61,700 nucleotides of DNA from a virus. The stretch covers positions 1-61,700 of IMG/VR virus record IMGVR_UViG_3300042890_003048; one strand, 5' to 3'. A model generated the notes under the pieces. That model was given only the letters and a program-made list of their open reading frames with translations, was not told where the DNA came from and made no database searches. The translations under genes and the position numbers were made by a program. Every line of letters starts with the position of its first letter. Position 1 is the first letter of the stretch. Below are positions 8,388-54,236 of the stretch, piece after piece.

Positions 8388-9437
8388 TCACTTAAGTAAT
8401 TCAGTAATTGCTTTTACGACATTTGCTTTTGACACTTCAAACAATACTGCGGGGTCTGTAGCTATTTTTCCAATTTTTGGGTTAATCCCATAAACACTTT
8501 TGCGTCGAACGTTAGCAAAATCACAGATGCAATTAAAAAAATGTTCTGATTTGTTTTTGTGCGTCAAATGCACAAATTTAGTTTCTGGAGAACAAAACGC
8601 CAAATGACTTAACGCTGCGCCGTGAACACCAACAATAACCTTTGCTTCTCGAAATGCTTTAGCGTTTTCTATCAAATTATGATCTTCCGTACACCACAAC
8701 TCAAAGCCATGCCTTCTTTTAAGAAAGGCCGCTAAATCAACTTGATTGGCGCAACGTTGAGTTAAGTTGTAATTTTTCAACCTCCCTACGAATAAGCGGC
8801 GGCGGGGTGGCTTTGTTTCCCAATGCTCGTTGGCGTACTTTTGCCACAACGCAACTGCTAGGCGTCTATTCACTACTCGCGCATCGTCTTTACCAACATC
8901 TAGTACAGAAAAGTAAGATAATTTTTTAGCATGCAAACGGTTAGTCGTACCGTATGTTGTGCTACCGTCTGGCAACACAGCAAACTTTGGATCCACGGTA
9001 TAAGTACTTAAAGAGTTTCTAGGTAACCAGTTTTCTACAACTGCCCTAAGCCCTTTAAAAGCATCTAGGTTGTTTTCACACACTATTAGATCGTGTGTCT
9101 TATCTTCAAACGCTCCCCATGCGCGAGGAATGCCGTCAATCAACGTATGGTAAAAATTACAATACGTGGGTATGTAGTAACCGGCATCAATTACTACAGG
9201 ATTTTCTGTTTTTATTAAATGAGCATACCGTAAGACTTTATCGTATTTTTCGTAACTCAAGTTTTGAAAATGCGTCCACAAATGGCGCGGTGATATTTCC
9301 GAGTTGCATTGCAATACCACATGTCGAGATGAATCCATTACCACATCATGTAACGTGCGTAAACCGAACGTGTATGGCTTTAAGATGTGGTCGTACATGG
9401 GGCACCATACAATGGGTGAAAGATTTAAGTCTTTCAC
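8388..9437 (-). CDS. GT61-type glycosyltransferase (DUF563)
   Basis: Predicted sugar transferase of family GT61, which in bacteria works on capsule or surface glycans. Diagnostic segments are NFYHTLIDGIPR (about residues 94-105), RRRLFVGR (212-219) and IVGVHGAALSHLAF (268-281), the last being the classic GT61 HGA block. The length of 349 is normal for the family. There is no signal peptide or membrane segment, so it acts in the cytoplasm. The start is unsure: GTG 9437 has no visible ribosome-binding site and lies in the arm of a 16-bp perfect inverted repeat, and ATG 9398 is the next option. The DNA is more AT-rich than the adjacent ATPase gene, which hints at separate acquisition. Targets could be virion proteins, phage DNA bases or host surface. 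Confidence 0.75.
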   Translation of the reverse strand: MKDLNLSPIVWCPMYDHILKPYTFGLRTLHDVVMDSSRHVVLQCNSEISPRHLWTHFQNLSYEKYDKVLRYAHLIKTENPVVIDAGYYIPTYCNFYHTLIDGIPRAWGAFEDKTHDLIVCENNLDAFKGLRAVVENWLPRNSLSTYTVDPKFAVLPDGSTTYGTTNRLHAKKLSYFSVLDVGKDDARVVNRRLAVALWQKYANEHWETKPPRRRLFVGRLKNYNLTQRCANQVDLAAFLKRRHGFELWCTEDHNLIENAKAFREAKVIVGVHGAALSHLAFCSPETKFVHLTHKNKSEHFFNCICDFANVRRKSVYGINPKIGKIATDPAVLFEVSKANVVKAITELLK

Positions 9438-11228: not shown

Positions 11229-11246
11229 GCTTTTCTCCAAAAGAAA

Positions 11247-11270
11247 GGGTCCCTGCAAAAACAGGGACCC
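11247..11270 (-). terminator. Intrinsic terminator in front of the AAA gene
   Basis: GGGTCCCTG pairs perfectly with CAGGGACCC around a 6-nt loop, and on the minus strand it is followed by TTTCTTTT. The ribosome-binding site of the AAA gene starts right after. It separates the DUF2997/DUF1257-like genes from the ATPase, so the ATPase is read only by read-through or from a local promoter. Confidence 0.75.
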
Positions 11271-15536: not shown

Positions 15537-15896
15537 CTAGAAACGCAACACGCGCGAATTGTTTTCGGCATCTTTATAATACAACACCACCTCACGAATT
15601 TCCTGTTTGAGTCTTGCGCAGAAATATTGCTTTAACGGTTGAAGCACATCGGGATCTACGCGGTAAACAGCATGTAACTGTTTACCTAAAGCGTTAACAG
15701 ATTTATCCAATGCTTGTCGAATTGTTGTGCAACCGCTACAAGGATCTTCTTCCTGTCCCATGGCAATACGCAAAGCTCGGGCGTGACTTTCTTTACAAGG
15801 CTCCACTAAAGGCTCAAAACCGGGTGGCAGAGTTTTATAAAAATTGTCGTCACCAAACATTTGATAAAAGTGCGTCGTGTTTAATACAAGTTGCAT
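15537..15896 (-). CDS. Hypothetical protein with PCSGC motif (119 aa)
   Basis: The middle contains EEDPCSGCTTIRQALDKSV, a Cys-x-x-Cys pair at a helix start, and the C-terminal half is a helix-rich segment with REVVLYYKDAENNSRVLRF. No family recognised. The start at 15896 overlaps the stop of the two-domain glycosyltransferase gene (TAATG), so the two are translated together, which may mean it helps that enzyme or only shares its timing. Confidence 0.55.
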   Translation of the reverse strand: MQLVLNTTHFYQMFGDDNFYKTLPPGFEPLVEPCKESHARALRIAMGQEEDPCSGCTTIRQALDKSVNALGKQLHAVYRVDPDVLQPLKQYFCARLKQEIREVVLYYKDAENNSRVLRF

Positions 15897-17821
15897 TATT
15901 TACGCCCCCACGGAAAAGTTTCAGAAAAACCGCGACGTCCGCCTTTATCTTTGGGCGGGCACCAGACGTATTTCTTTCCTGCATTGAAGTCTTTGATTTT
16001 ACCACCAAGCTGATGTACTTGCGCACCTATGGTAATATCTCCGCCGTTGTGATTAAGCCTAACGTCGGGAATGTTAGCTTGCTTCATAGTTTCAGTTGCC
16101 AGTGCCCAAAAATAACCCACGGCAAAATCTACACAAGAACCGTTAGATGCCAGCATTTGTTTATTCGACAGCCTCAAGTGTACGTTTCTAAACCAGTCGC
16201 TTTGGCGGAACCATAAGTCAGGTCTGTGTCCGCCGATAGCCATGGCGCTTAGATCGTGATACATCTTGGTACCGTACAACCGACAACCTTCTCGATGATT
16301 CAAGTTAATTGTTTCGGCTAGACGCGCTGCCCACATGGAATCAATAATTTTCGTGTCGTCATCAAACCAAACAAGATATGGCGTAGTGACAGGACAACTT
16401 GGATCGTGGAACATTTCACGCATGACTGGATACTTTTTGGCATTGTCTTCGTGATGGTAGATTTTTGTAACGACGGGTCCAAGCGACGCCACAAAATCGT
16501 ACGTAGCTCGAGATACGGCATTTAAACCGACACGTAGATCTATGCGTTTGCGGGGCAACGTTTTGAGAATGCCTTCAATGCAGGTTTTAGCTAACTCGGT
16601 GTGATCGCCGTAGCAGAGAACAAAGATTGTAAACTTGCCACCGATGTAAGGATTGTCCATAACTCCAAACAGATCAAATTCGGTTTCCTGTGATAGGTCA
16701 TGTTTTTCAGGAGGAGGGGGCGCAGTCTTAACAGTCACCGCGGTTGTCACGGGTTTTAGGATATCCAACGTAGTGGCTGTTTGACTGACATTTTTAACAG
16801 GAAGAACATTTTCTAGTGAATATTTACGGGATGGCTGCGAAATAGGAGGTAGAGTCCCGTCTTCGTAATATTCCATGACTTTCTCCACCACATGATCTAC
16901 AGTGATACGGTTTAAGCATTCAGGCACCGGTTGTTCGTCGGTACGTACAGGATGCAGACATAACTGTAATTTTGCTTTGCTGTTTGTTAAATCCATTTGA
17001 TCAATAGGCACGGTTCGTTTTTTCCAGCACCCCGACGTTTTACAACAATCCATTTGACCTATCGTGTGCAAAAACTTATGCGGCACTTTAACGGGAGCGC
17101 ATGTGTCGGGGAATTGGCCGTGGTTGGAATAACCTTCCCACCACCATTCTTCGCGTCCTCCCGCCAACACAACGCATGGCTTGTCGAACACGGCGGCGAT
17201 ATGCATAAACGATGTGATGCCGCAGATGACACCTTCAGCGTGGTAGATCAATCTAAACAAGTCAGCAATGTCATCCGTAGATCCAACCATGTATTTCACG
17301 TTGTTAAGCACAGGATGGACGTTGCGCGTAAAGGCTGCTCCTGCTTGTACGCAATTAATGCCATACTTGAGTAACGTATCTACAACGCCTTGAAATCTGG
17401 AAGGCAACCACCATTTGGCTGTCATATCTACTTTGCCACCACCAACGACAACCCAGTATCTGCCCGCAACTAATTTTTCTTCTTTGTTGGGACCGAGAAA
17501 AATTTCGCCTTTTGGATGCAGCACAGGAACGTCAATACCTGTGCGTTGTTTCCATTTCTTGTGGAAGAATGATACGAAATGCTGTTTGACGCCTGATACC
17601 GATTCTCGAATGCCGTCGTCGTATTCCATTTGAATGACAGGAGCATTTAACTTGGGATCTAAAGGGTAGACGTAAGGAAAGTACCGCCAGTAAGACGAAT
17701 AACTTCCTGCCATAGAAATGCGGTATTTACCGGGATACGTCAGATTCAAATCTCTAACAACCGCTGACAAGGCCACGGTGTCACCCAAGGCCCAACGATT
17801 ATGAATGACGTAAGGTTGCAT
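15896..17821 (-). CDS. Two-domain glycosyltransferase (GT9-like + GT2-like)
   Basis: The N-terminal half (about 1-330) looks like a GT9/heptosyltransferase fold: an early ALGDTVALSAVVRDL block, a central VVGGGK strand-loop, and the acceptor/donor region HAEGVICGITSFMHIAA followed by KPCVVLAGGREEWWW. A Pro-rich linker (about 330-390, APPPPEK) leads to a GT2-like half with FTIFVLCYGDH and the metal-binding acidic triplet in LVWFDDDT (about 483-490), plus a late HNGGDITIGAQVHQLGG. At 641 residues it is a fusion of two transferases. It sits amid tail-fibre genes, so glycosylating fibres or host glycans is plausible. The ribosome-binding site is weak, and the TAAGTACTTA palindrome is 12 bp upstream. 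Confidence 0.75.
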   Translation of the reverse strand: MQPYVIHNRWALGDTVALSAVVRDLNLTYPGKYRISMAGSYSSYWRYFPYVYPLDPKLNAPVIQMEYDDGIRESVSGVKQHFVSFFHKKWKQRTGIDVPVLHPKGEIFLGPNKEEKLVAGRYWVVVGGGKVDMTAKWWLPSRFQGVVDTLLKYGINCVQAGAAFTRNVHPVLNNVKYMVGSTDDIADLFRLIYHAEGVICGITSFMHIAAVFDKPCVVLAGGREEWWWEGYSNHGQFPDTCAPVKVPHKFLHTIGQMDCCKTSGCWKKRTVPIDQMDLTNSKAKLQLCLHPVRTDEQPVPECLNRITVDHVVEKVMEYYEDGTLPPISQPSRKYSLENVLPVKNVSQTATTLDILKPVTTAVTVKTAPPPPEKHDLSQETEFDLFGVMDNPYIGGKFTIFVLCYGDHTELAKTCIEGILKTLPRKRIDLRVGLNAVSRATYDFVASLGPVVTKIYHHEDNAKKYPVMREMFHDPSCPVTTPYLVWFDDDTKIIDSMWAARLAETINLNHREGCRLYGTKMYHDLSAMAIGGHRPDLWFRQSDWFRNVHLRLSNKQMLASNGSCVDFAVGYFWALATETMKQANIPDVRLNHNGGDITIGAQVHQLGGKIKDFNAGKKYVWCPPKDKGGRRGFSETFPWGRK

Positions 17822-35944: not shown

Positions 35945-37594
35945 TTAACCTTCAGGAATTGCTGTTTCAATTGTGACAAATACGTCTTCCGTACGACAGA
36001 AAAATTGTGTTGTGCGGTATGTCACTAAACTTTCGGGTGCATCGGGAATTTGAATAAACTCTGAATTCCGCAAGTACTTATTGGATCCGTCGGGGTAACG
36101 GATGCGCCCAAAAATATCAATTGCGCCAACGCTGCTGTTCGTAGGCAAGAAACCGTGTACGACGTCTTGAATCTTGGAAGCGTAAATGCGCCCAACAAAA
36201 CCTATGGCATTAATTGCGCTTGAAACGGCTAATTGAATGTCGGCTACGTCAGGTGCTGTTTCGTTGGATTGCTTGTAAACTGTGAAACTTATTTGTACGA
36301 AGCATGGCACAGGAGCTTTAATCAAACAGTCAGCCCCGTGATGCCTAATGTCTCGGGAATTAACCGTGTTCTGTACTTCCATAATCAGAGGCATGTATTG
36401 AATGTCGGCATCGTATTCCAATGTAGCTCCGGCGCTGTACGTCATGGCATCTTGCGTGGTGTCAGCAAATTTAATAACAGCTGTCTGATACCGAGAATAT
36501 GCAGCTTCGGTTGCGGAAGTAATGTCAGGCACAAAATCATCTGTACCAAGATCGTATCCACGTGTGTCTGATACCAACAACAATGTACCAGCGATCACTG
36601 CGGCATTCTTAGGCCGTATTGCGCGCACCTCGTAAAATCCGGGTGCTGCGTCTCGGGAAATAGAAAATTGCCAAATAGGCTGGCCAGAAATTGTATTTTC
36701 ACTTAAACGAACAGCGGTTATTGTTTTTTGCACTGTAACAGGCAAATACTCGCTACGAACATACCAGTCTGCGCGTCCACCCAATGCAACAGGGAAAATA
36801 GAATGTTTGTCCCTAAACATTTCGGCGTCACCGCAGCCAATGATTGATGTACCAATGATCCGACTGTAGGCATCAATGTTTCTTAAGAAAGCTGCCATAG
36901 TCACGCGGTTGGACAATGTTTTAGCTGCAATACCTTCTTGCAATCGTTTTAAAACAGCTGTGTTAGTTTCAGCGGTTGTACCTGCTGAAAAATCCGTGAC
37001 TGCGTAAGAAGTCACATAGGCGGGCGGAGGATTGACCGGAACAACCAGTGTGTTTTTTTCAATGTTGTATTCGGCGCCTGTGGCAAGTGCCTCAACTTCC
37101 AACGTAAACATATACCGCCCATCGGCTGTTGGCGTAATCAACCGATCTGTTGCAGTATTAACTTGTGCTGCTTCAGCTTTAGCAGAATAAACTTGCGTAG
37201 TGCGGTACCGTAAACCTTGAGCTTGAAAAAATGTATTGCGCCCGAGCGTCACTGTGATGTTGTTGCTCAGGATGATAGCAACACTGCCTGTAGCTGCGGT
37301 ACCGGCTTTGCGTTCCAGCCGAAAATTGGATAACACATCGTCAACCAAATCAGTGTCAGCCAGATCAGGATCTTGCTCCAGTGCCAATAAACTACGTGCT
37401 CGCCGATAGTCATTAATGAGTGTATCGAGACGGGTCGCCAACAATGCGTGATAGTAGACAAGTAATTCGTAAAAGACGCCACGACTAACATCAAGCGTAG
37501 GATTATCTTCTGCTATTCGTTGGCTAACTTCGTCGATGGACGCTGCAACCAATTCGGCAGACAATGCATCAAGCGCTTGTGGGGTAACTGCCAT
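35945..37594 (-). CDS. Baseplate J-like protein
   Basis: A baseplate wedge protein of the P2 gpJ / T4 gp6 family, 549 residues. Typical parts are the N-terminal helical segment VSRGVFYELLVYYHALLATR, an early strand region (FFQAQGLRYRTTQVY), the central VKRL-type block 'NTAVLKRLQEGI' and 'SNRVTMAAFLRNI', and a strand-rich C-terminal domain (CLIKAPVPCFVQISF). J proteins tie the wedge ring together around the hub. It follows the gp25-like gene directly, the usual order in contractile systems. ATG 37594 has GGAG six bases upstream. Confidence 0.78.
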   Translation of the reverse strand: MAVTPQALDALSAELVAASIDEVSQRIAEDNPTLDVSRGVFYELLVYYHALLATRLDTLINDYRRARSLLALEQDPDLADTDLVDDVLSNFRLERKAGTAATGSVAIILSNNITVTLGRNTFFQAQGLRYRTTQVYSAKAEAAQVNTATDRLITPTADGRYMFTLEVEALATGAEYNIEKNTLVVPVNPPPAYVTSYAVTDFSAGTTAETNTAVLKRLQEGIAAKTLSNRVTMAAFLRNIDAYSRIIGTSIIGCGDAEMFRDKHSIFPVALGGRADWYVRSEYLPVTVQKTITAVRLSENTISGQPIWQFSISRDAAPGFYEVRAIRPKNAAVIAGTLLLVSDTRGYDLGTDDFVPDITSATEAAYSRYQTAVIKFADTTQDAMTYSAGATLEYDADIQYMPLIMEVQNTVNSRDIRHHGADCLIKAPVPCFVQISFTVYKQSNETAPDVADIQLAVSSAINAIGFVGRIYASKIQDVVHGFLPTNSSVGAIDIFGRIRYPDGSNKYLRNSEFIQIPDAPESLVTYRTTQFFCRTEDVFVTIETAIPEG

Positions 37595-38084: not shown

Positions 38085-38579
38085 TTAAGCACCTTTAACT
38101 TGACGACTTTGTTTTAGAAGCCCGCGCAGATATTCAACGTTGTTTTGCGTGAATGGACCTGTGTCAGAGCCGTGCGCTTTTTTACGTCCAATTACATGAC
38201 ATGTGGCGCGTATTCTGCGCATCGTATGCCGCATACGTAACGCACGCTCCATCACGCTTAGTGTTTCTGCCATAGTTGTGGCGGCAATAATATCGCCAAC
38301 AGTTCCCGGCGGTGCTTGCTTTGTTGCCGGAGAAAGTACTTCGGAAAACTCGTCAAATATGTCTTGCCGTGAAAACGGTTCTGACATATTTTCTAATTCC
38401 GCAACACCAAGTGCGCCATTCCAATCTCCCGGACGAAACCATACGTGTCCCCGTCCTTGAGATAAATTTGATACTGCGTCTTCCGCATGCGTTATAAAAT
38501 CACGAAAACGACCTTCGTAATTTGCGTCCATGTTGACTTTGCTGCGTGGACGAAATTCTTGCGAAGATTGCGCTGCCAT
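38085..38579 (-). CDS. Unknown protein in baseplate operon (164 aa)
   Basis: A basic, Arg-rich protein (MERALRMRHTMRRIRATC) with no recognised domain or membrane segment. The start is ATG 38579, whose first bases overlap the stop of the sigma-like gene (TGATG), with GGAGG six bases upstream inside that gene. It may be a baseplate accessory protein or a nucleic-acid binding partner of the sigma-like factor. Confidence 0.5.
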   Translation of the reverse strand: MAAQSSQEFRPRSKVNMDANYEGRFRDFITHAEDAVSNLSQGRGHVWFRPGDWNGALGVAELENMSEPFSRQDIFDEFSEVLSPATKQAPPGTVGDIIAATTMAETLSVMERALRMRHTMRRIRATCHVIGRKKAHGSDTGPFTQNNVEYLRGLLKQSRQVKGA

Positions 38580-39322
38580 CACCCGCCTCCAAACGGCGAC
38601 AATTCGCCACCTTGATCCAAAAATGCTTGAATGCGCGCCTTACCTTGACTAATAGCTCCGGGGGAACGCTTTAATTTATTAGCAAGCTCCATGTTGCTTA
38701 AAAGACGTTTTCCGTTTAAACCCAACGTATGTTCCATAATCTGTTGATGGTATGGATCAAGATCATCGTATACAAATCGAGTCCACGCAGAATGTTGTTG
38801 TTTTTGCCAAGGATTGCTTGCTGCGCCTTCATAACCAGACGTGCCGGTTTCAGGGTCTACAATTTGTCCTTCAGATACCGGCGCATAGAACTTACGAACG
38901 CTGTGCATGCGTTTTGACGACAAACCCGTTTTATCAGATAATTCACTATCTGTGGGTGATCGTCCAAGTTCGTGTTCTAAATCTTTCTCGGCCTGCGAAA
39001 GAAAATAGCTATCCTGCATTACACGTTCAGGCGTTTTTAATACGCTGGTCTGTTGGCGATTAATTCGTTTAAGGCCTTGCAATTGTCCGTACACATACGC
39101 ACTGAGGCGCCCACGATTTGGAGCATAGCCGTGCATGGTGTCCAGCACGAGTTTGCGCGCACGACTTTCAATCAATGGGTTGCTTTCGCCAACGTGTGTT
39201 TTAATTGCGCCAGCAATAGTAGGTTTTAACGCTTTAAGTAAACCAGCGTTGCTTTCTTGTCCGGGCGTAGTTTTCCACACCCGATATGGCTCAGCAAATT
39301 CAGGTTCAATGTCCTGTGCCAT
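38579..39322 (-). CDS. Sigma-70-like transcription factor
   Basis: A 247-residue RNA polymerase sigma relative. Region 3 is best conserved: AEKDLEHELGRSPTDSELS followed by DKTGLSSKRMHSVRK (about 111-144), and a region 4-like helix-turn-helix: DLDPYHQQIMEHTLGLNG followed by RLLSNMELANKLKRSPGAI (about 187-224). Region 2 (about 45-85) is degenerate but has the ASAYVYGQLQG-like core helix. There is no separate anti-sigma gene. It lies between baseplate hub and gp25-like genes, so it is made with the late operon, and may direct polymerase to late promoters or be packed in the virion. Confidence 0.68.
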   Translation of the reverse strand: MAQDIEPEFAEPYRVWKTTPGQESNAGLLKALKPTIAGAIKTHVGESNPLIESRARKLVLDTMHGYAPNRGRLSAYVYGQLQGLKRINRQQTSVLKTPERVMQDSYFLSQAEKDLEHELGRSPTDSELSDKTGLSSKRMHSVRKFYAPVSEGQIVDPETGTSGYEGAASNPWQKQQHSAWTRFVYDDLDPYHQQIMEHTLGLNGKRLLSNMELANKLKRSPGAISQGKARIQAFLDQGGELSPFGGG

Positions 39323-42310: not shown

Positions 42311-45300
42311 TTAAGCGTCCATTGCGCCGCGACCATTGTTTATTTGCAGGTTTTTACCTTGCAGTTGATTACCAACGATTTCAAACTTACCGGACAATTC
42401 ACCTTTAACGACCAATTCTTTTTTAGGATCTGCGGCTTTTGCATCAGGCCTTTGTTTGGCTTGTTCCAAACTCTTCAAGAAGTCTTCTTCTTTTGCACCT
42501 TTTTTAACCACGCGATTCATGGTTTTAATGTCATCAATTGCTCGAACACCAAATTCTTTCGTAAAGTCCGCCATGTCGCCTTTTTTCATACCTTCGTCAT
42601 ACGCTTTTTGTATTTCGTCCAAGTTCTTTTTCTTATCTTTTCCAACAGTTTGCAATCGTTCTTTTGCGCCAATAAATCCAATAAGTTCTTGTTTGACGTT
42701 GGCACCGTTTTCACCTCCCAGCAACTCATCTAATTTTTTGCGTCCGTCTGCACTTAATTCAGGCATAGCCAAACCTTTAAAGCGATCGGCTACTTCAGAA
42801 TTTTTTAAACCTTGTAATTTTTCCGCCTCTGCGGCTTTTTCTAATTCAGGTCTGCGTTTGTCGTACAAACGCCGCAGTTCCGCAGGATCCATGCCTAGAA
42901 CCTTGGCGCGCGCTTCTATGCTTTTGTCTAACTTAATTTTTTGTTCTTTAGACAATTTGTCGTTGCCCGTTTCTTTAATAAGGGCAACGTCTTTTTCGTC
43001 AAACTTTTCTAGTTTTTCAGTATCAGCATATTCTGTTTGAAATTTATTCTTAGCCCCCGCATCTAACCCTGCGATTTGTTTGTTGATTTCTTCAAGAGTT
43101 GTTCCTTTTACGTCAACACCAGCGGCTTTAAGCGCCGCAGTTTTCATACGGATTTCTTTGGCGTCTTTCCCTACGTTTGCGCCACGCATGCCTTTCAATA
43201 CGGCGTCACGTTGTTTATTTAAATTGGCCATTTCTTGCTGCGCTTCCACAGCCGCTTGCGATTTCTTGGGATCGCTTATAACGTCTTCGGTAAAGATACC
43301 CGCACGGAATTTAGCCATATCGCCGCCGCTAAAGTCTGCGGCAAGATTGGTCATTTTTTGCTGAATTCCTTCAAGTTCAGCTGCGGTATCTAGCGCGCCC
43401 TTGCCCATTTTCAAAACAGCCAACGGTTCACGCAATTTATCAATCATGTTTCTAAGGTTGGCCTTATCCTCATCTTCTAATTTTTTCATGTGCGCGCCAG
43501 CATCCGTCTTACGGAACTCATCGAATTTTTCACTTTTTTCTTTTTGACGTTGTTTTAGAATGTTTGTACGCGCCTGTTCAGGATCGCGCACATTATTCTT
43601 TGTCATTTCTTTGTTAATTTCTGCGTCAGATACGCGGAATTCGTTATACGTCATAAGCGCAATCATTGATTCTTGCTTCGATGCAAGCGTATCTGGAACT
43701 ACATCAATAGCTCTACGGTGGCCGAGGTGCTCCTCAATGTCTGCTTCAGTAATGCCTAAGGCTGCGGCTCTTTTTTGCATCATAAGAAAATCGCTTGCTT
43801 CTTTACGGGTACTGCCTTTTGCTGCGTCAGTTTTCAATAAGGCATCAATTTCAGCTTCTGTAATCGGTTCTTTAACCATGCGGGCGCGTTCGTCACTAAT
43901 TCCTTTGCGCGCAGCTGCGTCTGAAACTTTAAATTTACCTGCTGCTATATCATCTATTTGTTTAGTTGCTGTTGCTTTTTGCTCTGGTGTTGCTTTAGGA
44001 TCCATCAGTACCGCACTAGCTTGTTTTTTTACATTTGCAGTAATATCTGTTTTATATTTTTCAATTTCATCCGCAGTAATGTTCTGATTAACGCCAAACA
44101 TGCCACCCATAGTTACGCTAAGCGTACTGCTACGTTTAGATGCTTCTGTTGCGGCATCCATGTCTGCATTGGTAATTCCTGTTGTTGAAACAGCTCCTAC
44201 GGCAGCGGCGCCTTTCTGAAGTTTATCTACAGCACCTTTAAGCGCCGTTTGTTTGACGTCAATTTCCTTTTGCAAATCTTTGTATTCTTTTGTGTTGGGT
44301 TTGAACTTCATTTGTTTTTTAGCTAAATCTTCAATTTCTTGCTGAACTTTGCCCATTTCTTCTACTGGTGCCCCAAGCTTTTCTCTAATTGTGGCAATGT
44401 CTATGCCACCAAGTGCCGCGCCAATAATTTTCATGCCAGCGTCAGGATCACCTTCTTTTGTATTTTTAACTGCGTCCACAATACTGCGTAGCATCGAATC
44501 ACCCGTTACACCTGACATCGTAGAACGGGCAACATCCTGTATTTTTTCGTATTGTTGTCGTGACCGCGTTTCTGCCAAAACACGTGGATCTGTAGTTGTC
44601 AGTACGTTCTGCAACTTGGCGTTCATGCCCTTCATTGTCGTCTTGTCCATGTTGCCAATAACGGACGTGGCCAACATGCGAAGAGCAGCTTGACGTTGTT
44701 CTGGATTTTTAGGTAAAGCGTTTCGGACATTAGCGGGTAATTGCTCTTCAATAATACGCGCCATATTCTTTTCAAAGTCAGGCATTTGGTTGTAATCGTC
44801 AGGCGTTAACTCACGCATTTTAGCAACGACATTGGTTGCAAGTCCCGACAGTTGCGTTCCGGAAATACCATAAGGGCGCAATCCGGCACCAAGAGAAGCT
44901 ACAGCTGAACGTGTTAGCGTACGGCCTACTTCTGCTGGTTGTGCTGTCTCACGTACGTAGGCTGCCAACTCAGGGTTACGGTCTAATGCTTCACGTGCTT
45001 GTGGTTTCTGCGTAAGCATGTTCGCAATTGTACTTTTGGACAATCCTGCGTTAACACCAATTTGTTCAACCTGCTGATTAGTAAGTTTTGTCAAATCAAC
45101 TTTTCGGCCGCCGATCGTAGCAAATGTCTCGTTGTTCTGGATTGCTTCCAGTACGCCCCCCAAGTCGGTACCAGCTACCTTACCGTCCATAGCATCACGC
45201 ATACGCGCCAAAGTACCAAATCGTGTGCCCAGATTGGAAGCAATGCCTTGTGTCGTCAATTTGCGACCAAACTGTGTCATTTGAGCTTCTGTCATGCCAC

Positions 45301-46561
45301 CAAACACAGGCGTGGCAAAGGCACCTGAAGAGCGCAGTGTTGCGTTAAATGCCAAAGCGTGTTGCGTTGCTGTCATGGCAAACGGAGATTCAATTCCCAA
45401 CTGACGGCCGTGCACTGCGGCGTCTTGCTGAATCAACATAGCGGTATCTGCGCTGATGCCTGCGCTTTTGGCAAGATAATATGTTTGTCGGACCGTCTTA
45501 GCGAGACGGCCTGCGTCAACTTGTCCCATTGAACCCATAGACATAGCGTCTAACGCCCGCATCAATTCGGGTATAGGTGCGTTGGGTTTACCCGCGTCAC
45601 CAAAAATATCGCGCATCGCCGTAATAGCTTCAAGATGCGATTTCAATGACCGCTTTACTTTGTTTGTATCTAATTTCTCCATAAATCCAGCATCTTGTGT
45701 TGCAGCCTGTGTTAATTTGCTTAAATCGTCTGAACGCATGCCGCTGAGATCAACTTGACCGTCTCTGCCTTTACGTATATTTTGCACGCCCGCCCTTCTA
45801 GCTAAAGCTACAGCATCATCGGCAGACATGTTCTTTGTTAAATCCGCCGCAGAAATTGACGGACGGAATGCTGACCCTGCAATCATGCCACGCGTTGATA
45901 ATTCACCGTAAAGAGAACCAAGCTGTCCTGCGGAAATGCCTTTCATTTGTCCGATCTTTTCGTCTGAATAAAAATCCTCCATGATATTTTCGTTTAAATT
46001 CTTAAGCGATCGATTACTCATGCCCATTTGACCGGTAGTTGGATCCAGTCTATAGCGCCCAGCCGATGCCATGCGCTGCTGCATAATCATTGCAGAACCA
46101 CGCCGACCATGAAGTTGGTCAATCACATCCCCGAACATAGGGGCAAGGAAGGGCGAAGCAGAAACGGCTAAATCCGAAAGATGCCCGGCGGCTGTTTTCA
46201 TCTCTGGCGTAAATGGTTGTCCTGTCAGCGCCGCCATACCGCGCATAGTACCCATGAACGAAGATCTATCTTGCCTAGCTGCTTGCGCCTGCGATTCCTG
46301 TAAACGTCTATAGAATTCCTGAGACTGAAGCCTGTCGTACATGTTTTGACCGTGCCCGACACCAATTCCAGCCATTCCAGCTTTTGACATAATCGAATTG
46401 AATTGAGAACCCAACGCCATTTCAAACATTAATCGCGTCTCAGGGCCACCGGGAAGAGGTAACCCTGACATGGATGATGAAAACTGTGGCGCTAAATTGG
46501 AAGCCAGCGGCGCATAACTTGCTCCCATGCCGAGAATATTAGTTATGCTTTGTGGGTCCAT
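42311..46561 (-). CDS. Tape measure protein
   Basis: At 1416 residues this is the longest tail-core gene in the window and sits just after the chaperone pair, the usual place. The N-terminal third is Gly/Ala/Met-rich with hydrophobic helices (MGASYAPLASNLAPQFS); the C-terminal two thirds are Lys/Glu/Asp-rich coiled-coil-like helices (AKKQMKFKPNTKEYKD-like). At about 1.5 angstrom per residue this would specify a tail near 210 nm (inference). No peptidase or lysozyme motif was noticed. ATG 46561 has GAGG upstream and overlaps the previous stop. It fits no other large family. Confidence 0.72.
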   Translation of the reverse strand: MDPQSITNILGMGASYAPLASNLAPQFSSSMSGLPLPGGPETRLMFEMALGSQFNSIMSKAGMAGIGVGHGQNMYDRLQSQEFYRRLQESQAQAARQDRSSFMGTMRGMAALTGQPFTPEMKTAAGHLSDLAVSASPFLAPMFGDVIDQLHGRRGSAMIMQQRMASAGRYRLDPTTGQMGMSNRSLKNLNENIMEDFYSDEKIGQMKGISAGQLGSLYGELSTRGMIAGSAFRPSISAADLTKNMSADDAVALARRAGVQNIRKGRDGQVDLSGMRSDDLSKLTQAATQDAGFMEKLDTNKVKRSLKSHLEAITAMRDIFGDAGKPNAPIPELMRALDAMSMGSMGQVDAGRLAKTVRQTYYLAKSAGISADTAMLIQQDAAVHGRQLGIESPFAMTATQHALAFNATLRSSGAFATPVFGGMTEAQMTQFGRKLTTQGIASNLGTRFGTLARMRDAMDGKVAGTDLGGVLEAIQNNETFATIGGRKVDLTKLTNQQVEQIGVNAGLSKSTIANMLTQKPQAREALDRNPELAAYVRETAQPAEVGRTLTRSAVASLGAGLRPYGISGTQLSGLATNVVAKMRELTPDDYNQMPDFEKNMARIIEEQLPANVRNALPKNPEQRQAALRMLATSVIGNMDKTTMKGMNAKLQNVLTTTDPRVLAETRSRQQYEKIQDVARSTMSGVTGDSMLRSIVDAVKNTKEGDPDAGMKIIGAALGGIDIATIREKLGAPVEEMGKVQQEIEDLAKKQMKFKPNTKEYKDLQKEIDVKQTALKGAVDKLQKGAAAVGAVSTTGITNADMDAATEASKRSSTLSVTMGGMFGVNQNITADEIEKYKTDITANVKKQASAVLMDPKATPEQKATATKQIDDIAAGKFKVSDAAARKGISDERARMVKEPITEAEIDALLKTDAAKGSTRKEASDFLMMQKRAAALGITEADIEEHLGHRRAIDVVPDTLASKQESMIALMTYNEFRVSDAEINKEMTKNNVRDPEQARTNILKQRQKEKSEKFDEFRKTDAGAHMKKLEDEDKANLRNMIDKLREPLAVLKMGKGALDTAAELEGIQQKMTNLAADFSGGDMAKFRAGIFTEDVISDPKKSQAAVEAQQEMANLNKQRDAVLKGMRGANVGKDAKEIRMKTAALKAAGVDVKGTTLEEINKQIAGLDAGAKNKFQTEYADTEKLEKFDEKDVALIKETGNDKLSKEQKIKLDKSIEARAKVLGMDPAELRRLYDKRRPELEKAAEAEKLQGLKNSEVADRFKGLAMPELSADGRKKLDELLGGENGANVKQELIGFIGAKERLQTVGKDKKKNLDEIQKAYDEGMKKGDMADFTKEFGVRAIDDIKTMNRVVKKGAKEEDFLKSLEQAKQRPDAKAADPKKELVVKGELSGKFEIVGNQLQGKNLQINNGRGAMDA

Positions 46562-47070
46562 TACGTCTTACCTCGGGGTCTTGGAATTTTCTGAGTAAGT
46601 CTTTGTTCCAATTCCTGTACCTGTTGTGCCGCATCAACTCCTGCTTGTTTGGTTTGCATCAACTCCTCTCGTTGCTTATCCGCAGCAGCCTTGTACTTAG
46701 CGACAACGGCAGGATCGTTAGGGTCTCCAAACTCTTGCGTAAACGCTTCTACGAGCGTTTGCTTAGTAACAGCTGCACTGTCCTTGGTTTGCCAAGGGCG
46801 CATAATACTTATCATATCCTGAAACAGGTCTCTGGCCTGCGTCTGCACCGACTTGAACGAATCCTTTTCCAGACTGCTGTTAGATATAAGTGCGCACTGG
46901 TGATTGTGTAACACTTTCAACAAATCAAGTTCGTCCAACGATGCCATGGCTTGCACCAAAGGCATTGTTCTTGCCCACCACGAAGAATCATTAATTTGAC
47001 AAGTTTCCGGCTTTATAATGCCGCGCAGAAACGCCCGAGTAATCAGGACGGCGTTTCTGTCTGTTTCCAA
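46561..47070 (-). CDS. Tail assembly chaperone extension (gpT-like, made by -1 frameshift)
   Basis: A 169-residue frame with a helical body (SLDELDLLKVLHNHQ) and coiled-coil-like, Gln/Glu-rich end. Its first codon is TTG within the previous gene and has no convincing ribosome-binding site. That is what a programmed -1 frameshift product looks like: the codons continue directly from the slippery heptamer AAATTTT at 47070-47076 in the 326-aa frame. By analogy with G/GT of lambda-type phages, the long fusion coats the tape measure. Its stop overlaps the tape measure start. Confidence 0.62.
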   Translation of the reverse strand: METDRNAVLITRAFLRGIIKPETCQINDSSWWARTMPLVQAMASLDELDLLKVLHNHQCALISNSSLEKDSFKSVQTQARDLFQDMISIMRPWQTKDSAAVTKQTLVEAFTQEFGDPNDPAVVAKYKAAADKQREELMQTKQAGVDAAQQVQELEQRLTQKIPRPRGKT

Positions 47071-48023
47071 AAATTTGCGTTGTCTACCATCGCCTCCAAC
47101 TGCGTAACCATGCGGTTAAAATCACGGCACGTCGAGGCAACTACGCGGTGAAGAGATTCTGTTTGAAAAATCTCAGCCGTCATATATTCTTCGACGATAC
47201 CTAACCCACGATCGTCAGGTGCAAGGGTTTCTGGTAACTCCCAAAACGTTGTAGCCGTCTTGTTAGTCTTGGGAGTAAAACCTTCAGGAAACTCAAACGA
47301 AAAACCATTAGTGTTCTTGGTCTTAATTTCAACGAGCTGTAAGTAAAAACGATACCTGTTAACAACTTCGTACAGATCTCCTTGAAATTTAATCTTGCCT
47401 TCGTTGACGTCATACACAATTTGCTCGTAACACGTATCAATTTCTTTGGGGCGCAATGACCGGAACGTAACAAACAATTCCCCGTTAAATAAACTGTACC
47501 GTTTAACAAAAGGTTTATTTGCCAACATAGCCGTGATGAACTTGAGCTTATCGTCATACGTTGGCTCAGGGCCATTTCTTAGGGTCAAATCCCACGCACA
47601 ACGCGGGCAAACAGTAATTGGTGTATCAATTCCTGTTTCGTTGCTGTCTGGTCCTAATACATTAAGCGGTGTAGGTTCAGGTATTGGAGATGTAGGCGCA
47701 GGTTGAGGCGTATCGTTCTCAATGGTTATATTTGTATTTGCACCTAAATTACTAAGTGATTTTCTAATTTCAGCCATTTTCTCTGGCGTCAAATCTGCGA
47801 CGGCAATTGGTTCAGGTGGTATAAATTTACCAGCATTGGGCGTAGGTGTTTGTGCCATACGTGTTTTTTCTTCTGCCATAATTTCGGCAATATTTCCGGT
47901 TATCTCGTCGGTTTGCGTAGATACAATTGTTTCAGTTGGAACAGCCGCAGGTGGCAAATTCTTACCGCCCGTAACACGCGCCAACAATTCTTGTTGCCGG
48001 TTCAAGTTAATCGACTTACCCAT
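47043..48023 (-). CDS. Tail assembly chaperone (gpG-like)
   Basis: A 326-residue protein with a Pro-rich, Thr-rich N-terminal third, a CPRC pair, and a conserved-looking C-terminal half with KRYSLFNGELFVTFRSL and a series of strands and helices. Position between the spike and tape measure, and the overlap plus slippery site with the following frame, identify it as the short form of the tail chaperone pair. It is longer than most chaperones of this type. ATG 48023 has GAGG five bases upstream. Frame ends 28 bp inside the next frame. Confidence 0.6.
   Translation of the reverse strand: MGKSINLNRQQELLARVTGGKNLPPAAVPTETIVSTQTDEITGNIAEIMAEEKTRMAQTPTPNAGKFIPPEPIAVADLTPEKMAEIRKSLSNLGANTNITIENDTPQPAPTSPIPEPTPLNVLGPDSNETGIDTPITVCPRCAWDLTLRNGPEPTYDDKLKFITAMLANKPFVKRYSLFNGELFVTFRSLRPKEIDTCYEQIVYDVNEGKIKFQGDLYEVVNRYRFYLQLVEIKTKNTNGFSFEFPEGFTPKTNKTATTFWELPETLAPDDRGLGIVEEYMTAEIFQTESLHRVVASTCRDFNRMVTQLEAMVDNANFWKQTETPS
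47070..47076 (-). promoter_or_regulatory. -1 programmed frameshift slippery site AAATTTT
   Basis: On the minus strand the zero frame reads GCA AAT TTT TGG, so the heptamer is A AAT TTT, the canonical X XXY YYZ form. A -1 slip places the ribosome on TTG GAA ACA, exactly the first codons of the chaperone extension frame. The zero frame ends 27 bases further on at TGA 47043-47045. Confidence 0.7.
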
Positions 48024-48030
48024 ATAAACC

Positions 48031-50826
48031 TCACCCTATTTGAAGAAAACCTTCTTCCATTGTTACGTTCTGTATATTACCCAATTCAGGCTCGTCGTAA
48101 ACCCCCGACGCCCGAGATGCTGCATTTCCTGTCGCCGGGTCTAACAAGCCTCCACCTATGGCTATCATAAAATTTTGTTCCTCTTTCCACGCCTTACGCC
48201 CGGGCCACGGATACAAGTCTACACCTTGATATGACACAGGATTTTCAATCCAGCTTTCACCGCCAGTACCAAGACCCAACGATACAAATTTTTCCCAACG
48301 ACGCTGATCCCACAATATGTTTGCTGTTTTATACTGATTTTGGTCTTCAGTATCTCGATAACTAAATTGCATATTTTTAATTGTGGTGTCGTTGCCAAGT
48401 TGCCTGTCTTGATAATACGATTGCACAAAATACGCGTTGTGCATTGTTTCACCAGCATCTCTAAATGCAGCTACGGCATCTGCTTGAGATTTAGTAACGT
48501 CATCCAAAGCGCCAGATAGCGTGTCTGGAACTTTTCCAACCATACCGGCCTTAGACTGGGCAAAAGTTTTAAGCGTTGCAATGCTGCCTTTAGCGTATAC
48601 GCCGCCAGTTGTAAAAATGCTTCTGTTGTCTCCGTAATTAATAATGTTGCCTCCAACTAATAGGTTCGCTGGAAGAATTGCGCTGGTTGTGTTGAAACTG
48701 TAAGCAAAATTAACGGTGCTGTCTTCGTTGGAAGGACCCATGAAGAAATCAACGCTTTTAGTGCAGAACACTGTTACACTACTACCGTAGAAATTAATTT
48801 GACCGCGTCCTTTGTCAGCGTCCAAATTGATTTGTTTATCGGCAGCCGAACGCAAATACACGTCTCCGCCGTATGCAGCAACTACGCTGTCAGGAGCTTT
48901 AAATACAATTCCATTTGAAACAACGTCTTGGCCAATGTTGTTTTCATATTCTTGCAGCGAACCCATTCCTTTGCACTCAACAAGTACGCCGCCTTGCCCG
49001 CCATTACCCGCCAACATATGCAAATTTCGTTGAGCTTTGATACGCACGTCGTTATCTGATGCGGAAATATCCACAGAAGTTTTAGCTCTCAACACAATCT
49101 GGTTACCCATAAGGACTATGTTTCTTCCGGGTACCAGTTCAATATCTCCAGCACATTCCAATCGAATTTTTCCACCAACCATTTTAATCGCTGAGCCAAA
49201 ACCGTCGGCTAAAACAACACCGCCATCTTCAAGAAAACACAAGAAAGACGTTGTTTGATAGTATAAGACCTCAGCGTAACGATGATCGATTCGCATAGAG
49301 CGTGGGGACACCGGTGACATGGTGTTAGCCCCACCCAATTCTGCAAAATTCAAATTATCTTGCACTTGTGTAAACGTAGCGCCTTCCGATTCTTCCCGTA
49401 CTCGATAATCGTTCTTGTGGTAATGGAATGGATGCACGCGTTTCCAATTAACTGCATAAGCGATTAATTCATCTACGCCCATAACCCGACGAATGCTTGG
49501 ATTGTCATCAGGTACACGTACGTCGCCGACACGATGTTGTGTTGCGTTACCAAAGTAACCTGAATACCGATAGTTATCCGCTTTAGAATCGTCGCCAGTA
49601 CCGTCAGCTGCATCTTTGCGCTGCTCCGCAATTGGCATGTTAACACGCCGACCTATCATGACGGATTTGGCGCTAAATAAATGGTACGATCCGTCTAATC
49701 CAATCCATTCCTCAAACACGCCCTCAGGTGAACGTGCAGAAAGTGTATTTTTTCCGTCAAAAAGTGGTACGGCAACTTCACGCACATGTCCCTGTCCTAG
49801 ATATCCGCCGTATTCGCGGTAACGGTAGAATGGGCGGGAATCAGCCGTGTCTTCTGCGGCACGTGACTCCGTCGTCTCGGGTTTACCGCTTACGTCATAT
49901 GGCGCATACGGCCACGCCCCTTTGTCAGGATCATCTTGCCGTTTAAACGCATCAGCATTATTTAAACCGTCAGTGTAGTCACTACCAATTTGCGTATCAG
50001 GACGTGACAATCCCAGCGCTTCCCACGGATACGTGGCTACGCCCGCAACAAAAGTAGATTCGCCTTCATCGTTACCTGTATCAAGTTCGTAGGTTGCGGA
50101 TTCTACCAATAACTGCTGTCCTGCGATACGTAAGTGGCTATCAATCAACGAGCCCCAAATACCGCACATTTCGTTAACACGTAATTGGAACATGTAGTCA
50201 TCAAGCGAAAATAACAAACCTGTAGCGGTACTAAACACCTTTTCTTGCGACGTTAGGTCTCGAGGACGGCCTGCTGAAAAATCAAGCGCACTGGCGGCGT
50301 TTAAAAGACGTTGCACGGGATACGAATGCACTTGCTCTTGAAACATGCCCGACATTCCGCCTTGACTGATAAAGTCGGAATAATTTTTACCTTGAGTTAA
50401 ATCTTCTAACTTTTTGACGGGATACACCGAAGGAATAGAACCAATAATATAACCAAATGGTGAATTTCGAGGCGTATATACCAAAACCGTTGAGCCAGCA
50501 GGATACACCGTTGCATCACGTACACCAAACGGCATAAAACTAGCCGTACTGAGCGAACAACAACGCATCACACCGCGACTATCGTTTAATTGAACGCGAT
50601 GCCACCCCAGATAAGGAATAGTGTGCGCAACAACACCGATAATGAGAGATTGACTGCCAAGTACATTGTGTTGTGTCTGCAAAACTCGATTAACGTCTCG
50701 CGCGTTAGCGTGAGGACTAATAAACATAGCCTCTAAGTTACGAAGCGCAGAGTCTAGTTGAGGTACGCTGGAATTGCTGTTATTCCCGAAAATATTGTCA
50801 GTCGCACCAAGATGCGAGTCATTCAT
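48031..50826 (-). CDS. Baseplate spike protein (gp5/gpV/VgrG-like)
   Basis: A 931-residue protein. It has an OB-fold-like stretch near residues 60-130 (IGVVAHTIPYLGWHRVQL), a long middle part rich in Tyr, Asp and Gly, and a C-terminal strand-rich helix with the typical spike repeat pattern: GDIELVPGRNIVLMGNQIVL then SVDISASDNDVRIKAQ, which is the beta-prism signature of gp5-C/VgrG tips. The end has a further strand region and an acidic tail. It should form the trimeric spike under the tube. ATG 50826 has only a weak ribosome-binding site. Confidence 0.72.
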   Translation of the reverse strand: MNDSHLGATDNIFGNNSNSSVPQLDSALRNLEAMFISPHANARDVNRVLQTQHNVLGSQSLIIGVVAHTIPYLGWHRVQLNDSRGVMRCCSLSTASFMPFGVRDATVYPAGSTVLVYTPRNSPFGYIIGSIPSVYPVKKLEDLTQGKNYSDFISQGGMSGMFQEQVHSYPVQRLLNAASALDFSAGRPRDLTSQEKVFSTATGLLFSLDDYMFQLRVNEMCGIWGSLIDSHLRIAGQQLLVESATYELDTGNDEGESTFVAGVATYPWEALGLSRPDTQIGSDYTDGLNNADAFKRQDDPDKGAWPYAPYDVSGKPETTESRAAEDTADSRPFYRYREYGGYLGQGHVREVAVPLFDGKNTLSARSPEGVFEEWIGLDGSYHLFSAKSVMIGRRVNMPIAEQRKDAADGTGDDSKADNYRYSGYFGNATQHRVGDVRVPDDNPSIRRVMGVDELIAYAVNWKRVHPFHYHKNDYRVREESEGATFTQVQDNLNFAELGGANTMSPVSPRSMRIDHRYAEVLYYQTTSFLCFLEDGGVVLADGFGSAIKMVGGKIRLECAGDIELVPGRNIVLMGNQIVLRAKTSVDISASDNDVRIKAQRNLHMLAGNGGQGGVLVECKGMGSLQEYENNIGQDVVSNGIVFKAPDSVVAAYGGDVYLRSAADKQINLDADKGRGQINFYGSSVTVFCTKSVDFFMGPSNEDSTVNFAYSFNTTSAILPANLLVGGNIINYGDNRSIFTTGGVYAKGSIATLKTFAQSKAGMVGKVPDTLSGALDDVTKSQADAVAAFRDAGETMHNAYFVQSYYQDRQLGNDTTIKNMQFSYRDTEDQNQYKTANILWDQRRWEKFVSLGLGTGGESWIENPVSYQGVDLYPWPGRKAWKEEQNFMIAIGGGLLDPATGNAASRASGVYDEPELGNIQNVTMEEGFLQIG

Positions 50827-50908: not shown

Positions 50909-51385
50909 TTAGTCGCCGGTGTAAGACAGGTCGGCAAACTCAAGTACTGAGTTTTCGTTGATAATCAAGTTCTGCGCCTGCACGCTCATACCGATTGAAC
51001 TGATGACGCATGAATTGAGAAGTACCGAAAACACGCCACTTGAAACTGCGCCTGCGGCGGGACATTGCGCCGAACCAACATTGAGTGCCAGTTGTTTTGG
51101 CGAGCAAGCATCGCCGTACGCAGCGTAAAAATTGCGTACGGAAAAGTTAAAACCAACGATGTGTGCAACGTTGACGTTGCCCTGTGGCTTGCCTTCAACG
51201 TAATAAACGTTTGCAGCATTACCGGCAACACCCAGTTCGTACACCTTCGTAATTGGACGCTGATATTGCAAAGTCAAGCTCTGCATCATCAGCCCACTGA
51301 GTCCGCCGGCTGCGGTGATGATGCCCTTATCGGCACGAAAACCACCCGCATACTGTTGAACTTCGCGATTAAAAATATTGGCCAT
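50909..51385 (-). CDS. Tail tube protein
   Basis: A 158-residue tail tube subunit. It carries the block SLTLQYQRPITKVYELGV and YYVEGKPQGNVNVAHIVG, features of tube proteins in large contractile phages where the ring fold resembles Hcp. It immediately follows the sheath gene, as usual. Strong ribosome-binding site GGGAGG. Conserved as the end-to-end stacked inner tube; no further domain. Confidence 0.78.
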   Translation of the reverse strand: MANIFNREVQQYAGGFRADKGIITAAGGLSGLMMQSLTLQYQRPITKVYELGVAGNAANVYYVEGKPQGNVNVAHIVGFNFSVRNFYAAYGDACSPKQLALNVGSAQCPAAGAVSSGVFSVLLNSCVISSIGMSVQAQNLIINENSVLEFADLSYTGD

Positions 51386-51413: not shown

Positions 51414-54236
51414 TCAAACGATCAGACGTACGGCAATGTTATTGAGGGCATACGGAACCGAAATATTGACCGTGACGTTCAACTTGTCCTTAAGCAAGCT
51501 GTCTTGTACAACGGCGAGATCCGCGTACGCAATCAGCACAGGACCCGTAGTTGAGGTATTTACGGTGAATGTATCCAGCGATTCACGCAGCGCCAGAGAT
51601 ACACGGTTAATAATATTTTGGTTGATGTTGTAAATGCCGATGAATGGATCAAGCACATCGCGCACAGCGTAACTGACAAAGTCTACATTTCGCGTAACCG
51701 ATTCTTCACGCTGATTGATATCAGTGTATGTACCGGTTGTGAGTGCGTGCCGTGCAAAAATCTGGCCGTTGTTACCATTCTGCGTCACGATGAATACGCC
51801 GGAAGCTGCCAACGTATCTAATTGCGCACGGTTAAACTTTGCCGTGGTGCGCGCAGCCCGAGAGTAACCAACGATTTCAACGCGAGTCATTGGCTGCTGT
51901 GGAAGCAAGCCAGCAGACAAACCGGCCAAGGACGCTGCAAGGAAATAACCTTCCATGACAGTGCCGCTGGATTCGATCGTGTCAGGCCATACTGCGCGAA
52001 TGCGGCGGGAACCCCAACTGCCGGCATCCAAAGCAATTTCAGCCGCTTCAGCTGTCGCACTGAGCGAACGCCAGATTTCAATCTTAGCCGCAGAATTAAT
52101 CGGAGCGGCTGGCCCCGATACAAGCCGTAACTGATCTTCTGACACAACCTCAGCAATTATGTATTCCGAGTAAGTGGTGCCACCAAAACCATCACCTACA
52201 TAAGCGGCGCGCACAATGTCACCCACGCGCACACCATTAGTGACAAAATCACCGTTTGCGTTGGTGTTATTAACGATGGTGAACTGTGAACCGGAGGTGT
52301 CAGGATCGTCAACAATCGTAGCCAAGCATGTTTCGCCATCAGAAGTGGTAGCTGTGACATGGTTGACTACGGTCGAGCCGGCTGATACTACAGGAATTTC
52401 TGGAACACCTGCAAGGTTTACCCACAAGACGCGCCACAAACCGCGTTCAGGCGACGACAGAGCAGTTACATGTGCGGCATAAAGATCCAATACCGTACGA
52501 TTGCGGGTCAGCGGCACAAGATTGTAAACATCGTCACGACCAAGCAGTGCTTCCAGCACATCGGCCCACGCTGTAGCATCGTCCGGATTACTAACAGCCG
52601 TGTACCCAACGGCGGTACCATTGCTGTTTTCAAGCGCCTTGAACACGCCCCACTTAAGTGGATTGTCTGGGTCAAGCACGCCGGAAATTGCATCATCAAT
52701 TTCACCAACGTTGCTGATAAAATTTACTTCGTTGGTAAGAGTCTGCACCCAAGCCCGGTATTCAACGTGCACAGCACCGTAGCCCTTGGATGATTCAGAA
52801 ACAACATCCAAAGCCAATTGAACACCTGAGTTTGTCCAAGTTGAATCGTACGCAACCATACCGGAGTACACGCTAAGTTCTGTTTCACTGGTATCCCAGT
52901 TAAGCAGTGGTGCAAATCCGGTGCGGTTCTTGGTGACGTTCAGCACTGGCTTGCGAATGTACAAAGTGACTTCAACTTGAGCACCGGCCGTAATGCCTGT
53001 GTCAAGGCTGTGCCCAAGTTCAATCGTCCGGTAATTGCCAGATGACGTACCTGTGCATTCAATATAATACTTGTCGCCTTTGCGTAAGCCGGCGCCCGTA
53101 AGTGTAATGGTGACACCAACAGTGCCAACAGCTACAGCTGTAGCAGACGCAGAAACCGTAGTAGGACCAGAAACGTCTGCGCCATTGCTGGTTGAAACAG
53201 AAATTTGTGGCTTTGTTGCGGAGGAGAACAAACCGCCCCGAGTTACTTCAACAACGTATGTGGTGTCTACGGCTGAATCGTACGTGCCACCAGAAGCTGA
53301 AGTTGCTGGTGCAAAATTGTCAGTTACGTTGATGCGCCAACGCTGACCGATGATCAAATCATCGGCAGAAACGTCGTCGGCAGTAGCTGATGCAGAACAG
53401 CCGCCGGTAGCAGAATTGAAGAATTCAACAGTCAGGCCGCGCGTACCGATAGTGGTAGCTTGAAAAGCTGCTGCCGGTACAACTTCAGCAACATCATCAT
53501 TGCCTGAACCGGAAAGGATACGCAACGTAGCTGTCGTCAGATCCCCGTTAACAGAACCGCCGGTGACAATAATATCGTATGTTTCGTTAATGTCGCCGCT
53601 AGGAAGACCGTCGTAAGCTGTTACGTTGGCGAGCGGATACACGCAGTTATCGGCGCCGGCAAGCTTAACAACCGTAGCTGCGGCCGATTGCGTAGTACCG
53701 TTATTCGTATCTGCGGACGAGGCGCCAACAACAGCGGCAACAACGTCTGGAATTAAATTTTTAACGTATGTCCACAATGTCACAGATACGCCGCTTGACA
53801 ATCCGCGCACTTTAACAACATCACCCGCAGCAACGTCACGATCATAAAAATCGGCTGAGCGCGGGTATGCGGTGCCGTTGGCTTTAAATGCCTTGGTTGC
53901 TGAGCGGATACGATTGCTGTAACCACTAACTTTTGTGATTACTGAACCAGTTGACAATCCGTCTTCATAATATTTGAGCAGCGCGTCTTTGATGTAGACC
54001 TTAACGTAACCTTCGTCTACTATGGCGCCAGCGGGGAGAGTAGGCCATGCATAGTTGTTGTCAAGAACGGTATCGTAGTAGCCCAAAAGGCCCTTAGACC
54101 GTTCATTTTCTTCCGCATAACGCAATAGATATGCGTGCGGGCCGGAGATATGGGCGTTCAATGGATTACCATTGGCAACCACAGCCGCCTGAAAATCTTG
54201 AAAAACTTGAACTTGCGGAAGAACGTACGTAGCCAT
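51414..54236 (-). CDS. Tail sheath protein
   Basis: A 940-residue contractile sheath protein, longer than the 400-700 residues common for such proteins. The N-terminus has LPQVQVFQDFQ and the core ALRESLDTFTVNTSTTGPV with VVQDSLLKDKLNVTVNISV at the end, matching the sheath C-terminal domain. The extra length comes from strand-rich, Ala/Val/Thr-rich insertions (for example VSASATAVAVGTVGVTITL), probably Ig-like outer protrusions. The start is ATG 54236 with GGAGG eight bases upstream. Confidence 0.8.
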   Translation of the reverse strand: MATYVLPQVQVFQDFQAAVVANGNPLNAHISGPHAYLLRYAEENERSKGLLGYYDTVLDNNYAWPTLPAGAIVDEGYVKVYIKDALLKYYEDGLSTGSVITKVSGYSNRIRSATKAFKANGTAYPRSADFYDRDVAAGDVVKVRGLSSGVSVTLWTYVKNLIPDVVAAVVGASSADTNNGTTQSAAATVVKLAGADNCVYPLANVTAYDGLPSGDINETYDIIVTGGSVNGDLTTATLRILSGSGNDDVAEVVPAAAFQATTIGTRGLTVEFFNSATGGCSASATADDVSADDLIIGQRWRINVTDNFAPATSASGGTYDSAVDTTYVVEVTRGGLFSSATKPQISVSTSNGADVSGPTTVSASATAVAVGTVGVTITLTGAGLRKGDKYYIECTGTSSGNYRTIELGHSLDTGITAGAQVEVTLYIRKPVLNVTKNRTGFAPLLNWDTSETELSVYSGMVAYDSTWTNSGVQLALDVVSESSKGYGAVHVEYRAWVQTLTNEVNFISNVGEIDDAISGVLDPDNPLKWGVFKALENSNGTAVGYTAVSNPDDATAWADVLEALLGRDDVYNLVPLTRNRTVLDLYAAHVTALSSPERGLWRVLWVNLAGVPEIPVVSAGSTVVNHVTATTSDGETCLATIVDDPDTSGSQFTIVNNTNANGDFVTNGVRVGDIVRAAYVGDGFGGTTYSEYIIAEVVSEDQLRLVSGPAAPINSAAKIEIWRSLSATAEAAEIALDAGSWGSRRIRAVWPDTIESSGTVMEGYFLAASLAGLSAGLLPQQPMTRVEIVGYSRAARTTAKFNRAQLDTLAASGVFIVTQNGNNGQIFARHALTTGTYTDINQREESVTRNVDFVSYAVRDVLDPFIGIYNINQNIINRVSLALRESLDTFTVNTSTTGPVLIAYADLAVVQDSLLKDKLNVTVNISVPYALNNIAVRLIV

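Follow-up and report, generated by a model that had tools for sequence, protein, structure and literature searches.

A putative programmed −1 ribosomal frameshift joining two overlapping tail-gene frames in a lineage of uncultivated phages

The window (the whole 61,700-nt stretch of the viral record IMGVR_UViG_3300042890_003048 that was analysed) carries a run of putative tail genes on its minus strand. Two of the frames, referred to as ORF1 and ORF2 hereafter, overlap in the −1 relation. The features in and around this overlap are as follows.

42311–46561, minus strand: putative tape measure protein, 1416 aa, assigned by position and by variable length in relatives; its start overlaps the ORF2 stop
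46561–47070, minus strand: ORF2, −1 frame extension of 169 aa, putative T-like domain, conserved across 13 lineages beginning at the slip site
47026–47059, minus strand: hairpin with a perfect 10-bp stem (arms 47059–47050 and 47035–47026), a 14-nt loop that holds the ORF1 stop, and a 10-nt spacer
47043–48023, minus strand: ORF1, zero-frame product of 326 aa, putative G-like tail assembly chaperone, with CxxC at residues 139–142
47070–47076, minus strand: slip site A AAT TTT, in the ORF1 frame, with the stop nine codons on; read directly
47093–47097, minus strand: GGAGG, possible upstream Shine-Dalgarno-like stimulator (tentative), 16 nt before the heptamer
48031–50826, minus strand: putative tail spike/hub, 931 aa, a conserved neighbour with a weak DUF2345 match (E 0.0016, below the cutoff)
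50909–51385, minus strand: putative tail tube, 158 aa, assigned because it follows the sheath; L073 and L074 carry homologues
51414–54236, minus strand: putative tail sheath, 940 aa, with a weak Phage_sheath_1 match below the cutoff

The last codons of ORF1, read directly on the minus strand, are GCA AAT TTT TGG AAA CAG ACA GAA ACG CCG TCC TGA, and the stop occupies 47045–47043. A preliminary description of this DNA had pointed to A AAT TTT shortly before the stop of the 326-aa frame and to a −1 slip that continues into a 169-aa extension; both are found as described, the latter as the open reading frame 47070–46561. The ORF2 frame is free of stops from 47115 onward, and its own stop shares the TAATG at 46561 with the ATG of the 1416-aa gene. 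The predicted fusion has 487 aa (318 + 169). Among the 30 genes of the window, in-frame matches to XXXYYYZ occur 54 times in 14,333 codons, or about once per 265 codons, so that a chance heptamer in the ORF1/ORF2 overlap of about 24 codons has p ~0.09. The heptamer alone is a weak case and is not decisive; the decisive elements are the hairpin and the conservation in 12 further lineages.

The arms of the hairpin form the inverted repeat CAGAAACGCC / GGCGTTTCTG, with a folding energy of −16.3 kcal/mol, and the stem lies within the 5–10 nt past the heptamer where an RNA structure is usually expected. This hairpin was absent from the preliminary description. When Watson-Crick stems of at least 10 bp beginning 4–12 nt downstream of a position were counted, 19 of 45,511 other positions (~3 distinct places) had a comparable stem, that is, ~0.04% (about 4e-4). 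The z-score against dinucleotide shuffles is only −1.7 to −2.4, because the shuffles retain the composition that makes the stem; for this hairpin, the positional background test is informative and the shuffle z-score is not.

We examined 13 lineages, namely the window and L074, L075, L076, L077, L078, L079, L080, L081, L082, L083, L084 and L086; L085 and L087 have the same slip site as L084 and were counted with it. These lineages are IMG/VR phage contigs, which were found by terminase alignment (40 loci, mostly distant) and then by spike alignments. Two of the terminase-alignment records carried divergent ORF1 homologues, and the spike alignments supplied more. The 12 further lineages show 22–36% identity to the window in ORF1 and 16–32% in ORF2. 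Three features are common to all 13 lineages. One is the gene order: the spike gene lies directly upstream of ORF1, and ORF1 is followed by ORF2 in the −1 frame and then by the tape-measure-like gene. Another is that the slip codon is aligned at F318 of ORF1. The last is the −1 extension itself, which together with the slip codon supports the earlier reading of a programmed −1 frameshift that yields a chaperone fusion. In the relatives whose locus shows it, the gene after ORF2 is long, and its length varies widely, from roughly 660 to 2020 aa, which fits a tape measure. Two near relatives, L001 and L002, share the window's exact sequence at and near the slip site, and they are therefore uninformative on its conservation. 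Contigs L014 and L016, closer relatives by terminase (TerL 79%), are short. As a separate observation, 39 differences separate the window from L001/L002 in ORF1 and ORF2, of which 38 fall within the first 645 nt of ORF1 (47379–48023, minus strand), the remainder being nearly identical; this mosaic suggests a recombination event.

The slip-site sequences of the 13 lineages are as follows.

Window and L074: A AAT TTT TGG
L075, L079, L080, L082 and L086: G GAT TTT TGG
L083: G TCT TTT TGG, a non-canonical heptamer
L081: T TCT TTC TGG, a non-canonical heptamer
L084: G GAT TTT TTC, with T TTT TTC in frame
L076: C GAT TTT TTC, with T TTT TTC in frame
L077: T AAT TTT TTC, with T TTT TTC in frame
L078: G AGT TTT TTC, with T TTT TTC in frame

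The check whether relatives conserve the heptamer came out favourably: the slip site stands at the same codon in 13 of 13 lineages, with variation in the letters of the heptamer. In the GC-rich L076, L079, L080, L082 and L084, TTT makes up 10–15% of the Phe codons and GAT 11–26% of the Asp codons, yet the site is GAT TTT. On each phage's own codon usage, the probability of the site codons is 0.01–0.03 in each of eight lineages, and the joint value over the 13 lineages is 10^-17.6, a figure that is too small because the lineages were treated as independent. An internal control is provided by other Phe codons of ORF1: the slip-site Phe is TTT in 12 of 13 lineages, the equally invariant F187 in 1 of 13, and F302 in 6 of 13. 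The slip site is, judging from these alignments, conserved at the nucleotide level beyond what the protein needs, which is codon-level selection.

Strong hairpins were found in only three of the 13 lineages (the window, L074 and L075). When local 50-nt windows were ranked by fold, the window fell in the lowest 2.5%, L074 below 0.3%, and L075 at 0.7%; in the remaining lineages the 50-nt fold is ordinary, the exception being a 70-nt fold in L086. A consensus RNA structure sought across nine lineages gave three pairs, without support, and no shared structure. The GGAGG has a counterpart in L074, 13 nt upstream of the heptamer; its part as a stimulator stays tentative, because the same bases encode a conserved L-E-A motif. 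It is conceivable, although doubtful, that selection acts on a core of U-UUU-U, present as U UUU UGG or as U UUU UUC and read by tRNA-Phe, and not on the classic double-slip heptamer. In L083 (G UCU UUU UGG) and L081 (U UCU UUC UGG), the P-site tRNA cannot re-pair normally, and most lineages lack a strong hairpin; on this doubtful reading, slippage may rest mainly on one tRNA and the next codon, or on other stimulators.

In all likelihood, the arrangement in the window reflects programmed −1 ribosomal frameshifting at A AAT TTT. The slip site, the frames, the hairpin, the conservation of site and frame in 13 lineages, and the codon selection can be read from the DNA; the slippage itself, its efficiency and the chaperone role are inferred. 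The majority of ribosomes would halt at the TGA at 47045–47043 and release the 326-aa protein. In a minority, tRNA-Asn and tRNA-Phe would shift back by one base on A AAU UUU, a step favoured by the hairpin 10 nt past the heptamer, and these ribosomes would complete the 487-aa fusion (318 + 169 aa). By analogy with gpG/gpGT of phage lambda, the likeliest roles are binding along the tape measure protein for the short form and recruitment of tube subunits for the helical extension of the fusion.

The identity of the pair was sought in sequence and structure. Neither ORF1 nor ORF2 gave a match that counts in Pfam, PHROG, NCBIfam or, by sequence, the PDB, and they are accordingly not placed in any Pfam, PHROG or NCBIfam family; no detectable homologue of the pair was found among 50,697 phage records. 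Searches of cultured phages with ORF1, the spike and the Baseplate_J protein (tblastn) also found nothing. Of the proteins compared in this way, only the sheath and the large terminase subunit (TerL) find distant relatives in cultured phages (Salmonella phage Arash and Vibrio phages D69, D148 and D181), and an ORF1 profile run against Arash and D69 gave no match. The AF2 model of ORF1 has a confident core at about residues 150–320. Foldseek found nothing for this model in the PDB; among viral models, the top match was a protein of Rhodococcus phage Finch, its tail assembly chaperone (prob 0.97, E 0.0086), a weak match with a TM of 0.27–0.29; a tail protein stood at rank 6 and a second tail assembly chaperone at rank 9. 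Since the TM-scores are low, the fold match is support and not proof.

The gene order was also said to fit the G/GT system, and it does: sheath, tube, spike, ORF1, ORF2 and the 1416-aa gene follow one another, so that the pair is located between the tube and tape measure candidates with a spike-like gene interposed. The sheath identity rests on homology, its C-terminal half resembling a structural protein of Salmonella phage Arash (26%, E 5e-18), while the tube and the tape measure are assigned by position; the tube candidate (158 aa) had no PDB match and the 1416-aa protein no family match. By analogy with gpG/gpGT, and on the basis of this gene order and the weak fold match, ORF1 and ORF2 are probably tail assembly chaperones. 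The alternative that the frameshift is real and the pair is something else, for example a minor baseplate or hub component made in two forms, draws on the lack of homology to any known chaperone family and on the spike-like gene between the tube and ORF1, an arrangement unlike that of lambda. We consider it unlikely, since a weakly conserved pair placed just before a tape-measure-like gene agrees with G/GT, and the viral fold matches at ranks 1 and 9 are tail assembly chaperones.

It is also necessary to consider whether ORF2 is a separate gene and no fusion is made. Its translation would then begin at a weak start, either TTG 47070 or ATG 46965, or ribosomes would reinitiate once ORF1 has ended. 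Starts are present in frame. The TTG at the slip site had been taken for the sole possible start, which is incorrect: ATG 46965, TTG 46959, GTG 46956 and ATG 46947 lie in frame downstream. Moreover, an ATG in L077 and a GTG in L078 overlap the ORF1 stop; these are the only two such lineages, and extra reinitiation is possible in them, while both also keep T TTT TTC. Several observations speak against a separate gene. The GGAGG nearest to the TTG is 22 nt away, beyond the normal initiation distance, and the TTG itself is a by-product of TTT TGG, L081 having CTG there. Counted from the slip site, the conserved residues of ORF2 are F1, R6, L10, A14, G18, D21, D29, W33, P93 and W94, and a product begun at one of the downstream starts would lack the first 35 residues, which are conserved. 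R6, residue 5 of a TTG-initiated frame, is encoded ahead of the ORF1 stop in the window; in L080, where the stop comes 17 codons past the slip codon, the conserved stretch FLESDRTAVFLVEAH also lies ahead of it. Conserved ORF2 residues upstream of the ORF1 stop need a fusion, and the codons under selection are the slip codons themselves. The AF2 model of ORF2 is all helical (mean pLDDT 81.7), with its first helix from residue 6. An independent ORF2 is thus very improbable, and from its conservation ORF2 is best read as the fusion part of a longer protein that lacks a proper independent start.

A fusion could also arise by transcriptional slippage, given the run of T at the site, which is T5 for the window and T6 for the TTT TTC lineages. 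However, T5 is shorter than the runs usually required for it, and L081, where the site reads GATTCTTTCTGG and the longest run is three, has an unchanged frame relation; on the L081 evidence this explanation was rejected as barely credible. That an assembly or sequencing error divided one gene in two, as a homopolymer in a metagenome-derived contig might suggest, has a negligible probability and is refuted by the 12 further lineages, contigs of independent metagenomes with the identical frame relation at the same codon, and the two near relatives L001 and L002 are identical here as well.

Several known systems allow a comparison. In phage lambda, the tape measure protein and the tube subunit are the partners bound by gpG and by gpGT, a minor −1 fusion; the G/GT arrangement is widespread in long-tailed phages despite low sequence similarity (PMC5009743); the lambda-type tail chaperone frameshift is described by Levin 1993 and Xu 2004, 2013, 2014, as cited in PMC5009743. 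The present locus resembles it in having a short product and a predicted minor −1 fusion, overlapping frames just before the tape measure gene candidate, a slip site shortly before the first frame ends, and a low between-phage similarity, which is the rule. It differs in the slip site of this group, in the longer ORF1 (191–457 aa, with the CxxC motif), in the spike-like gene between the tube and ORF1, and in the lack of detectable homology, although a G/GT system is not defined by homology to the known chaperone families. Pea enation mosaic virus RNA2 (a plant umbravirus) shifts frame at G_GAU_UUU_UGG (PMC5009743), and L075, L079, L080, L082 and L086 carry the identical ten bases GGATTTTTGG, unlike the window with its A AAT TTT. 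In the plant RNA virus, the site serves polymerase expression on a eukaryotic ribosome; the shared ten bases are convergence and not kinship, so that bacterial phages have converged on GGAUUUUUGG, which a plant RNA virus uses. The PRFect catalogue of actinobacteriophage tail assembly chaperones, as far as its account in PMC10885494 goes, holds pairs with a −1 shift, including motifs other than XXXYYYZ; the likeness of its motif twoonefour to GG-A-TTTT is, to the same extent, by name only and concerns different phages (PMC10885494). The present case is very probably a programmed −1 frameshift, with an uncommon slip site in an uncultivated lineage, and probably a further instance of the G/GT trick already known from phage lambda. 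It would add to the phages with a G/GT-type tail frameshift a lineage whose members are large, have sheathed tails and lack family-library entries for the pair, and the slip codon, together with a CxxC-bearing ORF1, provides a conserved handle for finding such genes and annotating them correctly.

Finally, some other genes of the window were recorded. A protein resembling sigma-70 region 3 is encoded inside the tail/baseplate cluster (38579–39322, minus strand; Sigma70_r3 E 2.8e-5, just below the cut-off), and the gene holds this place in relatives too (L074 12606–13364; L073 732–1667, minus strand); one guess is a late-gene sigma factor. The terminase large subunit gene lies at the window edge (1–1542, plus strand) and is probably truncated. 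Pfam matches on the minus strand are glycosyltransferase 9 (15896–17821), glycosyltransferase 61 (8388–9437), an AAA ATPase (9456–11258) and Baseplate_J (35945–37594).
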